From NCBI RefSeq assembly GCF_000152265.2, contig NC_021592.1, positions 1,302,001 through 1,366,000 of the forward strand: a stretch of DNA of 64,000 nucleotides, given 5' to 3'. Below the pieces are notes generated by a model. That model did no database searches and was not told where the DNA came from. It was given only the letters and a program-made list of their open reading frames with translations. The stretch's first letter is position 1. Every line of letters begins with the position of its first letter. The stretch is from Ferroplasma acidarmanus Fer1. Lineage in GTDB: Archaea > Thermoplasmatota > Thermoplasmata > Thermoplasmatales > Thermoplasmataceae. Both the position numbers and the translations under genes were made by a program. Positions 10,610-53,139 of the stretch are shown here, piece after piece.

Positions 10610-11072
10610 TATAATTGGTCTTTTTCTTGATTACCGTACCAGCTTCAAATTTTTCTATCCTGTGGTTGTTCTACTTTTCCTTACCCTGGTTGTGACATTT
10701 CATTCCAGGAAATATAAAAATAAGGAAATGGACGAAATTATCCGTGATGCAAACCTGAAAATTGAAGATACACATTTCCTGAAAGAACTTAAACTCATAA
10801 AATCAGGGGATTTCTCATCCTACCTCATGGAAATAGATAATGATATGTCTCAAGTAACCCTTCTATTAAAGCACTATAAACTTATGGTCAGGAAATATCA
10901 TAAATATAACGCGAAAAGCAAAAACTCTTCGAGGATTATGAGAAAACATGCTGCAAAAATGAAAGATGCATATCTTCAATATATTTTAGATGACTATGAA
11001 TCGATTAAGAAAATAAAAATGAATATGATAAATACGGAGGTGTACGATGAATGGAAGAAACAGAAAATATAA
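10599..11072 (+). CDS. Hypothetical membrane-anchored protein in the MoxR operon
   Basis: About 157 residues from the ATG at 10599. I chose this over the in-frame GTG at 10587 because GGTGGTGA at 10586-10593 makes a good ribosome site for the ATG. One N-terminal transmembrane helix (FFYPVVVLLFLTLVVTF) is followed by a basic, helical cytoplasmic tail (KYHKYNAKSKNSSRIMRKHA). No family recognised. The gene overlaps its neighbours on both sides, so it belongs to the operon. It may be a small partner of the DUF58 protein, but this is inference from position only. Confidence 0.65.
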   Translation: MGINIIGLFLDYRTSFKFFYPVVVLLFLTLVVTFHSRKYKNKEMDEIIRDANLKIEDTHFLKELKLIKSGDFSSYLMEIDNDMSQVTLLLKHYKLMVRKYHKYNAKSKNSSRIMRKHAAKMKDAYLQYILDDYESIKKIKMNMINTEVYDEWKKQKI

Positions 11073-12004
11073 GGGATACAATAATTGATATGGAAACATC
11101 CATAGGAAATACGGTAATAGGTTCTTCGAGAATAGTCCGTTTTATGCTTATTTCTCTATTTACAAATAACCACATACTTATGGAAAGTGTTCCGGGGCTT
11201 GCCAAAACAATGCTTGCATCAGAATTTTCCAAGCATCTTGGCTTGCAATTCAAGAGAATACAGTTTACCCCCGATATGCTCCCCTCAGACGTAACAGGGA
11301 ATATGGTTTTTAACCCAGAAACAAGGAAAATGGAATTCAGGGAAGGCCCTGTATTTTCAAACATTGTCCTGGCAGATGAAATAAACAGGACACCACCAAA
11401 GGTCCAATCTGCCCTGCTTGAAGCCATGGAAGAAAAGCAGGTATCAGTATACGGGCTCACAACAAAACTACCATCACCATTTCTTGTAATTGCAACCCAG
11501 AACCCCATAGAGCAGGAAGGCACATTTCCCCTTGCAGAAGCCTTGATGGACAGATTCCTGTTCAGGTACTATATTGATTACCCTGATAGGGAAGACGAGA
11601 TAAAAATTTTAAAATCTATTTACAGAAACGCAGCTAAAAAATATAATACCCTGGATTCAGCCACTATACTGCATTACCGGAATTTAGTAAACGAAGTTTA
11701 TGTTAATGAAGAAATAATAGAATACATTATAAATATAATCAGGAAGAGCAGGGAATCAGATATGGTATACCTGGGTGCCAGTACACGTACTGCAGTGAAA
11801 TACCTTAATGCTGCAAGGGCAAATGCTATGCTAAGCGGGAGGAAATACGTTATTCCTGAGGACGTAATCTTTATTGCCCGGGAAATCCTAAACCATCGCC
11901 TTATTATGCGCCCTGAGTCACTCATAGATTCAGAGGCAGATTACAGAAAAATTATATACAATGTCATAGATTCAATAATAAATTCTGTAGAGGCACCCCA
12001 ATGA
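11051..12004 (+). CDS. MoxR-type AAA+ ATPase
   Basis: A 317-residue AAA+ ATPase of the MoxR (APE2220/MoxR proper) class. Walker A-like ESVPGLAKTMLASEF (residues about 47-61; Ala stands where many P-loops have Gly), Walker B LADEINRTPPKVQSALLEAMEE, and the sensor ATQNPIEQEGTFPLAEA are all canonical for this family. The C-terminal lid has the GASTRTAVKYLNAARANAM motif. MoxR proteins work as chaperones that insert cofactors or activate partners carrying von Willebrand A domains; the partner is normally the adjacent DUF58 protein. GGAGGTG about 9 bases before the ATG is the ribosome site. The 3' end overlaps the DUF58 gene by 4 bases (ATGA). Confidence 0.93.
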   Translation: MEETENIRDTIIDMETSIGNTVIGSSRIVRFMLISLFTNNHILMESVPGLAKTMLASEFSKHLGLQFKRIQFTPDMLPSDVTGNMVFNPETRKMEFREGPVFSNIVLADEINRTPPKVQSALLEAMEEKQVSVYGLTTKLPSPFLVIATQNPIEQEGTFPLAEALMDRFLFRYYIDYPDREDEIKILKSIYRNAAKKYNTLDSATILHYRNLVNEVYVNEEIIEYIINIIRKSRESDMVYLGASTRTAVKYLNAARANAMLSGRKYVIPEDVIFIAREILNHRLIMRPESLIDSEADYRKIIYNVIDSIINSVEAPQ

Positions 12005-13296
12005 TCCGGAAGGCAGGTTATGCTATACTGGCTGTATTGACATACGGAATACTTGAATCAGTTCTGTTAGGATATAAATATTACATTATATTTACGATTC
12101 TTACATTCTTCATGGTTGCATTTGATGTTGTATATTTTAATATATCAGGTTCGAAGGCGATAAATCATATTTCGGTTACAAGAAGGTATGATACAATTAA
12201 ATTCAGAAAAAACAGGAAATTTCAGATAACCCTGCTTTTTGAAAATAAAAATCCATTTCCAGTCTCAGTGCATTTTTTTGATGAAGCCATAGATGTGCTG
12301 GAGATTTCCGGAAAAACAGGTGGAAATATAACCATTCCTGAAAATGGGTCATACGAAACATCTTATTCAACAATTCCGCGTTATATAGGAAAATATAAAC
12401 TGGGAAATATAACAATCAGTATCTCAGACCTGTTTCATATTGCTTCAGTTAATAAGACAATAGCCATGGATATGGCGATTCGCATATCACCTTCTACACG
12501 TGACATAAAATCTATCCGGAGTGAAATGATAAGCAGTTTTATTTATACCCAGGGCAACCATTATTCCCACCATGTTGGCCAGGGGTACAATCTATACGGT
12601 GTAAGGCCCTATACATTTGAAGACGATCCCCGGTTTATTGTATGGAGCAGATACAGTGAAGGCAATGAGGATAGCATAATGGTAAAAGAAATGGAGGAAG
12701 AGCGTGAAATTACAACAATTTTTATCATAGACTACAGCATAGCCATGAATTACGGCGATATAGACAGGGTTTACGACAGTTCTATAGTAGATATTATTAA
12801 TTCAGCCCATTTTATGGCAAAAAACCGTGACAATGTAGGATTTTTACTATATTCAAGCAAAATTAATGTATATATCCCGCCTGGCAAGAGTGGCGAGAGT
12901 ATAAGCAGATTGGAAAAATCAGTTTCCAGTATTCTTCCAGATGGGGAATTTAGAATTGGGGATGCCCTAAAAGAACTACAGCTAAAGCAAAAAAAGCATT
13001 TTCTAACATTTATTATAACCGCATCCAGATCATACATACCGCGAAAATTTTTAAATTATAGCTCAACAAGCATATTCCTTATAGACAGTGAATCATACTA
13101 TGAATATTCGCCAACCGGGAAATTCGACGGGCTTCTCATACAGAATATGCGGAAAAAAGATCTGGAAAACCTGTCACGAAACGTTAAGGAGATCAGGGAT
13201 TATGGCATTAGATGCACATATGTGAACAGGAAAAATATGCTTTCAAAAATTATGGTAGAATATAATTACAGGAGGAGCATGAATGCAGGTGCGTGA
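12001..13296 (+). CDS. DUF58-family protein with vWA-like domain
   Basis: 431 residues. Two N-terminal hydrophobic helices (about 5-45) are followed by a beta-sandwich region and then the DUF58 signature LYGVRPYTFEDDPRFIVWSRYSEGN (conserved R-x-Y-x-x-x-D-D-x-R-x-I-x-W pattern). Next comes a von Willebrand A-like fold beginning TTIFIIDYSIAMNYGD. The MIDAS motif is degenerate: D-x-S-x-A instead of D-x-S-x-S, so metal binding may be weak. DUF58 proteins pair with MoxR ATPases, here directly upstream with a 4-base overlap. It is probably membrane-anchored with the vWA part in the cytoplasm. Confidence 0.9.
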   Translation: MIRKAGYAILAVLTYGILESVLLGYKYYIIFTILTFFMVAFDVVYFNISGSKAINHISVTRRYDTIKFRKNRKFQITLLFENKNPFPVSVHFFDEAIDVLEISGKTGGNITIPENGSYETSYSTIPRYIGKYKLGNITISISDLFHIASVNKTIAMDMAIRISPSTRDIKSIRSEMISSFIYTQGNHYSHHVGQGYNLYGVRPYTFEDDPRFIVWSRYSEGNEDSIMVKEMEEEREITTIFIIDYSIAMNYGDIDRVYDSSIVDIINSAHFMAKNRDNVGFLLYSSKINVYIPPGKSGESISRLEKSVSSILPDGEFRIGDALKELQLKQKKHFLTFIITASRSYIPRKFLNYSSTSIFLIDSESYYEYSPTGKFDGLLIQNMRKKDLENLSRNVKEIRDYGIRCTYVNRKNMLSKIMVEYNYRRSMNAGA

Positions 13297-14155
13297 TAAC
13301 ATAAATAAATATTTAATTCCTGTACTGGCAGCTATTATATTTATTCCTGACTTTATAATGTTTTACGCACTGGGAAATGTGATTTATAATTCAACGGTTT
13401 TCTACTTTGTTATTTTATTCACAGTTGAAATTATACTTTCAAAATTTATTAAACTCTATGGTTTCCTGATCTTCCTTTTTACCCTCATGGCTGTGTTATT
13501 GTTGTATATCAAAACACTTTATTATTATACACATATTGTAGGAAGGTATTTTTATTATCTGCCCAATATGCCTGTAACCACCAGGTTGGTTTATACCCTT
13601 GTGGTTATATTTATTATTGGCATAATGGTAGAAGGATTATTCTCCAGAAAATTCTGGCATCTAATTTCATCATATATTATTGTAACCGGTACCATGCTCA
13701 TGCAAATGGCAACACTTGCATATATGCATGCTGGTGGAATAACCATTAATTATAATTCCTACATGACTAGCCTTTACAGTGTATCTGTATTAGAATACAA
13801 ATCTATTCTCTCACTATTCCTTCACGGATACCAGACCTACCTTCCACTGTACAAACTCGCGCTTCCCATGGCATTTCCGATTGCAATAGGATTTATGGTA
13901 TCTGTAATAGGAACAATACTGTGGTTATATTCTATACAAAGCAGTAAAACGGACAATGTTTTTGGATACTTTTCCATAGTTATCGGGCTTGCAATCGGTT
14001 ATCTGTTCTTTCTCACAATTCACTATGTTACCCCTGTTAAGTTTGAATTTTTATCAATAGCCATAGCCGTTGTATCTGTTTACCTCATTATTTCATACAG
14101 CAATAGTAAAAGCAAGGATATTACGGTCAAAGCTGATCCAGATTATGAAAAGTAA
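13283..14155 (+). CDS. Polytopic membrane protein closing the MoxR operon
   Basis: 290 residues with about eight predicted transmembrane helices (for example ILFTVEIILSKFI, VVIFIIGIMVEGLF, FPIAIGFMVSVIGTIL, FGYFSIVIGLAIGYLFFL) and short loops. No transporter or enzyme motif is recognised. The start overlaps the DUF58 gene by 14 bases, and a GGAGG-like site (TACAGGAGGAGC) lies just before the ATG. As the last gene of the operon it may be the membrane component on which MoxR and DUF58 act, but that is inference from position. Confidence 0.75.
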   Translation: MQVRDNINKYLIPVLAAIIFIPDFIMFYALGNVIYNSTVFYFVILFTVEIILSKFIKLYGFLIFLFTLMAVLLLYIKTLYYYTHIVGRYFYYLPNMPVTTRLVYTLVVIFIIGIMVEGLFSRKFWHLISSYIIVTGTMLMQMATLAYMHAGGITINYNSYMTSLYSVSVLEYKSILSLFLHGYQTYLPLYKLALPMAFPIAIGFMVSVIGTILWLYSIQSSKTDNVFGYFSIVIGLAIGYLFFLTIHYVTPVKFEFLSIAIAVVSVYLIISYSNSKSKDITVKADPDYEK

Positions 14156-14230
14156 ATTGCTGATTAAGCCATATAAACTATCCCTATTTTATAACAAAAA
14201 AACGGTATGTTTATGTACTTAATTGGCATT

Positions 14231-14240
14231 ATTATATAAA
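14231..14240 (+). promoter_or_regulatory. TATA-like element upstream of a possible small RNA
   Basis: ATTATATAAA on the plus strand, placed about 25-30 bases before the first base of the hairpin region at 14266. No protein start follows it on the plus strand apart from a five-codon ORF and shadows of the rhodanese gene. This spacing is what an archaeal promoter for a small RNA would look like. AT-rich DNA gives such matches often, so the call is modest. Confidence 0.35.
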
Positions 14241-14261
14241 TTTGCATTAATAAAAAGCATT

Positions 14262-14332
14262 ATGAAGCTATCCAGCTAAAATCTGATGTAGTCCCATCAG
14301 TATTGCTGAAAGGTGGCTGCATATGAAATGCA
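14262..14332 (+). ncRNA. Candidate structured small RNA between convergent genes
   Basis: Two consecutive hairpins can be drawn. The first (14266-14318) has an outer helix AGCUA-CC (14266-14273) with GGUGGCU (14312-14318), a middle AGC/GCU pair (14274-14276 with 14305-14307) and a perfect apical stem CUGAUG/CAUCAG (14283-14288 with 14295-14300; 6-base loop). The second is UGCAU/AUGCA (14318-14322 with 14328-14332) with a 5-base loop; it shares base 14318 with the outer helix. No run of T follows, so it does not look like an intrinsic terminator. It matches no RNA class I know. It lies 107 bases past the stop of the MoxR operon and runs into the 3' end of the rhodanese gene. Confidence 0.35.
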
Positions 14333-14334
14333 AA

Positions 14335-14649
14335 CTATACCAGTGGCTTGTCCTCTATTTCCCATCCATACAATCCATTGTATAGATTATATACATTTGT
14401 TATGCCATTTTCCTCAAGAAACTTTCCTGTATAGTAACTTCTATGACCGGAGCTGCATACCAGCACTATTTTTTTATCTCTGTACTTTTCTACCAGAGAT
14501 ATATTATTAAAAATATCGTACATAGGAATTGGCACAGAATTTTCTATATGGCCGGATTCATATTCAAATTGTTCCCTTACATCTATAATCACGCATTCAT
14601 TCTTTTCTGCCATTTCCGATACTTCATCAGCATCTATGTTGAGAACCAT
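14335..14649 (-). CDS. Single-domain rhodanese-like protein
   Basis: About 104 residues from the ATG at 14649; an upstream in-frame TTG would add three residues but has no support. The rhodanese fold is clear: IIDVREQFEYESGHIENSVPIP at the N-terminal CH2A block, and the active-site loop CSSGHRS with Cys65 as the persulfide-carrying residue. The C-terminus ends NLYNGLYGWEIEDKPLV, typical of stand-alone sulfurtransferases. It may move sulfane sulfur for tRNA thiolation, FeS assembly or detoxification; the acceptor is unknown. It is a monocistronic gene. Confidence 0.9.
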   Translation of the reverse strand: MVLNIDADEVSEMAEKNECVIIDVREQFEYESGHIENSVPIPMYDIFNNISLVEKYRDKKIVLVCSSGHRSYYTGKFLEENGITNVYNLYNGLYGWEIEDKPLV

Positions 14650-14782
14650 AAAACACAAATATAAAATTATTATTTAATTTTTAAAACGCTTTGAATGCTA
14701 CATATTTTAAATAAACATAAGAATTACCAATAATAACAATAAATGGGGTTGCCTGACAACACTATGCGACTCTAAAATATAT

Positions 14783-53066: not shown

Positions 53067-53139
53067 GGGTTTGTGGGGTAGCCTGGCATCCTTCCAGCTT
53101 CGGGAGTTGGAGACTCCGGTCCAAATCCGGACAGACCCA
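53067..53139 (+). tRNA. tRNA-Pro (anticodon CGG)
   Basis: 73 bases fold into a full cloverleaf. Acceptor stem GGGTTTG (53067-53073) with CAGACCC (53132-53138; one T-G pair); D arm around GGGTAGCCTGGCATCC; anticodon stem CCAGC/GTTGG closing loop TTCGGGA with anticodon CGG (Pro codon CCG); T stem TCCGG/CCGGA with loop TCCAAAT. The discriminator is A at 53139, and CCA is not encoded. No intron. A tyrosine recombinase gene starts 49 bases downstream, so its 3' part is the probable attachment site of the integrated element. Confidence 0.93.

Follow-up and report, generated by a model that had tools for sequence, protein, structure and literature searches.

A clade-restricted structured RNA in a Thermoplasmata genus: a candidate loop-seeded antisense repressor of a TrpY-family mRNA

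INTRODUCTION

Excerpts of a review (PMC5867862) describe the archaeal intergenic RNAs that have a known target as very few, and the two closest to the RNA reported here come from Methanosarcina mazei. The first, sRNA162, has been examined genetically and in mobility-shift assays; according to passages of the original report (PMC3510493), it is independently encoded and is proposed to cover the initiation region of a transcription-factor mRNA, which it does through an unstructured linker that pairs with a Shine-Dalgarno-type site in a bicistronic mRNA. The second, sRNA154, has a hairpin loop of the anti-ribosome-binding-site type and is reported in the review excerpts (PMC5867862) to repress the translation of glnA2; it has several targets, others of which it stabilises. 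The proposed target of the present RNA belongs to the TrpY family. In Methanothermobacter TrpY is the repressor of the trp operon, whereas a Thermococcus homologue does not repress that operon (parts of PMC6737238). Widespread use of leaderless mRNAs in Thermoplasma is noted in sections of another review (PMC7531240).

The window is the whole stretch of 64,000 nucleotides that was analysed, part of the archaeal chromosome (1,935,211 bases) of the window genome, G000. It contains a structured RNA that resembles sRNA162 in being archaeal, possibly independently encoded and potentially directed at the initiation region of a regulator mRNA. In contrast to sRNA162, this candidate would use a hairpin loop and would bind just past the AUG, on an mRNA that is probably leaderless. 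The hairpin loop is a likeness to sRNA154, although sequence, lineage and target are all different. It seems fairly likely, by analogy, that the RNA works in the manner of these two systems; membership of their families is not claimed. Among the papers listed in searches of open-licence PubMed Central, none dealt with small RNAs of this group or with this RNA.

RESULTS

The Locus

The intergenic gap at positions 14156–14334 of the window is 179 nt long and is flanked by convergent genes. On the plus strand, the gene at 13283–14155 encodes a 290-residue protein that is hydrophobic by eye, matched no family and has relatives in 17 of the 101 genomes in the searched set. On the minus strand, the gene at 14335–14658 encodes a rhodanese-domain protein (PF00581, E 5.5e-21) and ends at 14335. 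The 290-residue protein is the last of three encoded by adjacent plus-strand genes at 11051–14155, the other two being a MoxR-type AAA ATPase and a DUF58 protein. A sequence-only reading of the window had placed a structured RNA between the convergent genes; the gap and the layered hairpin that it described are present (14266–14272/14312–14318, 14273–14276/14305–14308 and 14283–14288/14295–14300), but three of its details fail.

Overall Structure of the RNA

When five distinct sequences were each folded alone, they gave a common architecture comprising an outer helix (P1), an AAA bulge, a second helix (P2), an A-rich internal loop and an apical helix (P3) closed by the loop UAGUCC. All of these elements lie on the plus strand. 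P1 is formed by UAUG-A-AGCUAUC (14261–14272) and GGUGGCU-G-CAUA (14312–14323), and six of its 11 pairs show changes on both sides. P2 pairs CAGC (14273–14276) with GCUG (14305–14308); in one relative, G008, the compensatory form CGAU/GUCG replaces the CAGC/GCUG of the other genomes. The AAA bulge at the junction of P2 and P1, on the 3′ side (14309–14311), is invariant. P3 pairs CUGAUG (14283–14288) with CAUCAG (14295–14300) and is almost invariant, with 97% of its cells paired. The apical loop (14289–14294), the proposed seed, is identical in six genomes and costs only 0.0–0.07 kcal/mol to open. A second hairpin, UGCAU/AUGCA at 14318–14332, had also been read from the sequence; the window sequence allows this pairing, but relatives do not conserve it, and the bases of its 5′ arm belong to the outer helix.

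The fold of the single window sequence is moderately unusual on the plus strand (z −2.86; 2 of 200 shuffles equal or better), the corresponding values for the minus strand being −2.05 and 5 of 200. With the five-sequence alignment, RNAalifold gave z −10.0 on the plus strand, and none of 1000 column shuffles was as good; the minus strand also scored highly (z −8.9), as expected for the complement of a hairpin. Changes on both sides are found in eight of the 24 pairs among the five sequences, a number matched by none of 500 shuffles (the count made by RNAalifold itself is seven). Standard pairs occupy 94.9% of the cells in the alignment as compared with 87.9% in shuffles, and they fall to 25–54% when the partners are slid by one to three columns. 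P3 is nearly invariant and therefore contributes little covariation evidence on its own. The 120 pair cells comprise 103 Watson-Crick pairs, nine G-U, one A.C and seven others or gaps. The 9:1 ratio of G-U to A.C cells, together with the better z score of the plus strand, indicates that the RNA is read from the plus strand.

Fold, covariation and strand bias strongly support the initial description of an unassigned structured RNA on this strand. No Rfam match was found: the window gave none at the gathering score of Rfam release 15, in a fast scan that also missed a tRNA-Pro, and a permissive search gave eight sub-threshold matches that touch the stretch, the best for the hairpin having an E value of 1.5 (15.8 bits against a gathering score of 65.3). 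Three related loci gave nothing up to E 1 in the same release. The tRNA-Pro lies at 53067–53139 of the window and was identified by ARAGORN and by a whole-genome tRNA search (46.3 bits).

Two well-known classes of guide RNA were compared with the fold. In H/ACA guide RNAs the guide pocket is internal and two-sided, and an ACA box directly follows the lower stem on its 3′ side; inspection of the present RNA showed only an AAA bulge on one side and a small internal loop rich in A, and a conserved ACA after P1 is absent. C/D box RNAs carry conserved boxes C and D. Such conserved boxes are not seen here: the stretch resembling CUGA reads UCGA in G008, where the opposite side of the helix has changed to match. 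Short reading frames near the hairpin, read by eye, vary between genomes and break, and a peptide was therefore rejected as the product.

Distribution among Relatives

When 61 genomes were searched at the DNA level, six had matches, namely the window genome and five others. In four of these (G003, G005, G006 and G008) the match sits between the same gene pair; the fifth (L007, in G004) is an AT-rich stretch at a site other than the gene pair and was regarded as a chance match. A covariance model, R1, was then built from five sequences. Its match in the window covers 83 positions (14249–14331, plus strand) and scores 91.1 bits, a value that is not independent since the window sequence is one of the five. 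The copy in G101, a genome of the window species outside the training set, lies between the same flanking genes and reaches 87.8 bits. Among 10 genomes of the genus, R1 found six strong copies (E 9.7e-21 or better). With stricter filters it found the same six only among 117 genomes of the order, and five copies, all from the same genus, in a sample of 400 genomes of the class.

Several weaker matches were discarded. Two R1 hits with E values of 0.043 (G008) and 0.125 (G004) reproduce the outer-stem pattern only, the inner parts being different or absent, and are ascribed to chance. So are three sites in viral contigs that fit an 18-base pattern exactly, where R1 covers just those 18 positions (18.8 bits). 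No second credible copy was found in the window genome, the one further site given by R1 having an E value of 7.35, and there was no credible sign of a mobile origin. Weak R1 hits also drew attention to a pair of opposed hairpins about 80 nt apart (L079, contig C41 of G008, 1345–1418 and 1501–1574) with near-identical arms, UUGGGACA.. and ..UGUCCCAA; they are possibly a small inverted-repeat element.

The gap measures 144–216 nt in the six RNA-bearing genomes. Conservation of the gap, the point on which the sequence-only reading could have failed, holds within one clade. In four relatives that lack the RNA, the same two genes are separated by 3 nt (G004) or 9 nt (G002 and G007) or overlap by 11 nt (G065). 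Two further genomes, G025 and G077, with matched ends at most 57 and at most 54 nt apart, were excluded from this count of four. In a tree of TrpY proteins, the RNA-bearing genomes and G001 share one fork with a support of 100/100. Neither the RNA nor the two neighbour genes were found in the G001 assembly, which is 80% complete. Since the six RNA-bearing genomes form one clade, they count as one event and not six; a single clade of a Thermoplasmata genus may have acquired the RNA gene once, or may be the only one to have retained it. Taken as a plus-strand, lineage-specific gene for a structured small RNA, the locus is almost certainly correctly classified on these comparisons.

Promoter-like Sites and Probable RNA Ends

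A promoter matrix was derived from 30 tRNA genes of the window genome (consensus TAAAAAAATTTATA). As background, the best scores in random 120-position stretches had a median of 4.5, with 8.7 as the 95% level. In four relatives a promoter-like site occupies a common position, 58–62 nt upstream of P1; G003 (10.2) and G006 (9.1) exceed the 95% level, and G005 (7.0) and G008 (6.5) are below it. The BRE/TATA box at this position is AAAAATTTATA in G003 and G006, and the aligned site in the window, at 14210–14215 on the plus strand, is degenerate (TTTATG). G000 and G101 have no promoter-like box at the position shared by the relatives, and their best site (5.4) precedes the hairpin by just 14 nt, a spacing too short for a promoter of this RNA. 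The TATA-like element from which the RNA had been proposed to start, at 14231–14240 on the plus strand, is a candidate alternative promoter for the window species, but it scores 3.3, below the random median, and is not at the position that the relatives share. The proposal that the RNA has its own promoter thus has moderate support in relatives, at a different place, and is weak in the window genome.

The observation that no T-run follows the hairpin is correct for the plus strand of the window genome, where the test for an intrinsic terminator found none directly after the stem. In four relatives, TTTT or TTTTT occurs 38–39 nt downstream of P3, within the reversed coding end of the rhodanese gene; G000 and G101 have no such T-run after P3. 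On the minus strand, a terminator scan listed the apical hairpin as terminator-like. We infer an RNA of about 70–110 nt.

Complementarity to the trpY-family Start

A loop segment of the RNA is accessible and matches, in antisense, the initiation region of an mRNA from a distant gene. The antisense segment, UGAUGUAGUCCCA (14284–14296, plus strand), is the complement of nucleotides +4 to +16 of the reading frame of a trpY-family gene. The product of this gene has 170 residues and matches NCBIfam TrpY_fam with an E value of 9.2e-50 and 168.9 bits, against a curated cut-off of 180; no Pfam family matched it. A TATA-like box lies about 28 nt upstream of the ATG, and for this reason the trpY mRNA is probably leaderless.

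The exact 11-mer TGGGACTACAT, the reverse complement of the loop centre, occurs 12 times across the six RNA-bearing genomes: five times in the RNA itself, six times at the trpY start, once per genome, and one more time in a second trpY fragment in G003. In all six genomes, the 11-mer at trpY occupies nucleotides +4 to +14 of the reading frame (ATG-TGG-GAC-TAC-AT). The RNA of G006 lacks the exact 11-mer owing to one base, an A-to-G exchange that is the sole change in the antisense segment and that leaves a G-U pair in the stem as well as in the duplex with the mRNA. The complementarity extends over 13 nt in G003, G005 and G008, over 13 nt with one G-U in G006, and over 11 nt in G000 (14286–14296) and G101. 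The second fragment (L123, G003:C69:2935-3030) is a trpY-family 5′ end at the end of a contig, and its protein is 88% identical to the version of the window species; it probably derives from another strain mixed into the assembly.

To gauge how unusual the match is, the 13-nt segment was compared with the start regions of sampled genes, taken from −25 to +35 and allowing as many as four alternative starts. Among 376 genes of G005, trpY ranked first with 13 nt and the next best had 8 nt; among 388 genes of G000, trpY had 11 nt and the next best again had 8 nt. By duplex energy in G000, trpY ties for best and is listed second. When the full 18-nt P3 core with both stem halves served as the query, trpY ranked fourth of 389 by duplex energy and two other genes reached 10 nt. 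Of 20,000 shuffled 13-mers compared with the 764 genes, 0.11% reached 13 nt and 4.6% reached 11 nt; scaled by 2.49 to an assumed number of about 1900 genes, these chances become approximately 0.3% and 11%. Another 13-mer of the hairpin has up to 12 nt of complementarity somewhere in the 764-gene sample. Matches to the 11-mer outside the RNA itself number seven, which is not above the nine of a reversed-pattern control, and the unusual feature is their placement. Opening the whole antisense segment costs 8.8–11.4 kcal/mol, and the net energy of RNA-trpY pairing after both partners have been opened is favorable, at −5.6 to −7.3 kcal/mol.

Relatives that lack the RNA have other sequences in place of the 11-mer: TGGGATTATAT in G004, TGGGACTATAT in G002 and G007, TGGGATTACGC in G025 and G077, and TGGGACTACGC in G065. 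G001, of the same clade, retains the 11-mer at trpY. In G004, G002 and G007, 11 standard pairs, one or two of them G-U, could still form, with energies of −14.1 to −16.4 kcal/mol. The value for G065 is −17.1 kcal/mol, as compared with −18.3 to −22.5 kcal/mol in the RNA-bearing genomes. The contrast in duplex energy is therefore modest. No compensatory exchange between the RNA and trpY was found; codon 5 has switched between ATC and ATA with the RNA unchanged. Across the clade and G001, 20 of 111 comparable trpY codons are invariant, including the D and Y codons of the site; by residue, the invariant codons include three of nine for D and one of three for Y. This invariance may fit a pairing constraint, but only weakly, since the site (W-D-Y-I-N) is also under protein constraint and the invariance of its D and Y codons is only mildly unusual. 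The pattern ATRTARTCCCA has 49 sites in seven genomes in which the RNA was not found, G001 included, and no equivalent antisense hairpin was seen among the 30 loci that were folded; two of these (L192 and L203) are loop-like, both with wide, weak loops.

DISCUSSION

The most likely function of the RNA, judged from its sequence, is that of a loop-seeded antisense repressor of trpY translation, and we regard this candidate role as probable. The loop UAGUCC and the 5′ half of P3 would pair with codons 2–6 of the mRNA for the TrpY-family regulator, which is made elsewhere on the chromosome. Because this mRNA is probably leaderless, a duplex right behind its 5′-terminal AUG should exclude the ribosome, and less of the regulator would be made. 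A more specific proposal is offered more tentatively, at slightly less than even confidence: an antisense RNA dedicated to this task arose between two genes in one Thermoplasmata clade, is aimed at the TrpY-family regulator and, seeded by its loop, silences the leaderless mRNA by pairing just past the 5′-terminal AUG.

A genuine small RNA whose invariant stem-loop binds a protein or another RNA, with a coincidental match to trpY, is a somewhat unlikely alternative. P3, the loop and the AAA segments are more invariant than pairing requires, and a match of 11–13 nt at some start region has the chance of about 0.3–11% given above. However, the unpaired loop is at the center of the match, which spans 13 nt in four genomes and in all six follows immediately on the start codon of the same gene, and the RNA shows no kink-turn, C/D or H/ACA anatomy that would point to a particular protein. 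It is improbable that the hairpin is a structured 3′ untranslated element that protects or ends the mRNA of the upstream operon (MoxR, DUF58 and the 13283–14155 gene). The RNA is on the same strand and downstream of the 13283–14155 gene in all six genomes, and a strong promoter is absent in the window genome; but the RNA begins about 105 nt past the stop codon, with the promoter-like box in between in four relatives (above the 95% level of random stretches in G003 and G006 only), the window genome lacks a following T-run, and relatives have the same gene pair without the RNA.

Two further alternatives involve the rhodanese gene. It is very improbable that the hairpin is a terminator or 3′ untranslated hairpin of the rhodanese mRNA on the minus strand, even though it follows the rhodanese stop codon directly, the minus strand folds too and it has a T-rich tail there: wobbles possible only on the plus strand outnumber the reverse nine to one, the plus-strand alignment score is the better one, and a terminator needs neither an invariant loop nor invariant bulges. 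The cis-acting antisense RNA of the rhodanese gene that the sequence-only reading proposed is less probable still. The hairpin ends at 14323–14331, before the rhodanese stop at 14335, so that an antisense overlap could arise by read-through only; read-through would overlap the end of the gene, and the TTTT(T) of four relatives lies within that overlap, but the conserved fold stops short of the gene and the overlap follows coding constraint. We found no positive evidence for action in cis: the convergent pair is kept in relatives without the RNA, and the invariant part matches the trpY start instead.

For this antisense candidate, a single target gene and its exact pairing site can be named, and there is a clade in which some genomes have the RNA and others lack it. 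If the proposal is true, a small RNA would control a probably leaderless archaeal mRNA, which has no Shine-Dalgarno site that could be covered; such translation control would suit archaea with leaderless mRNAs.
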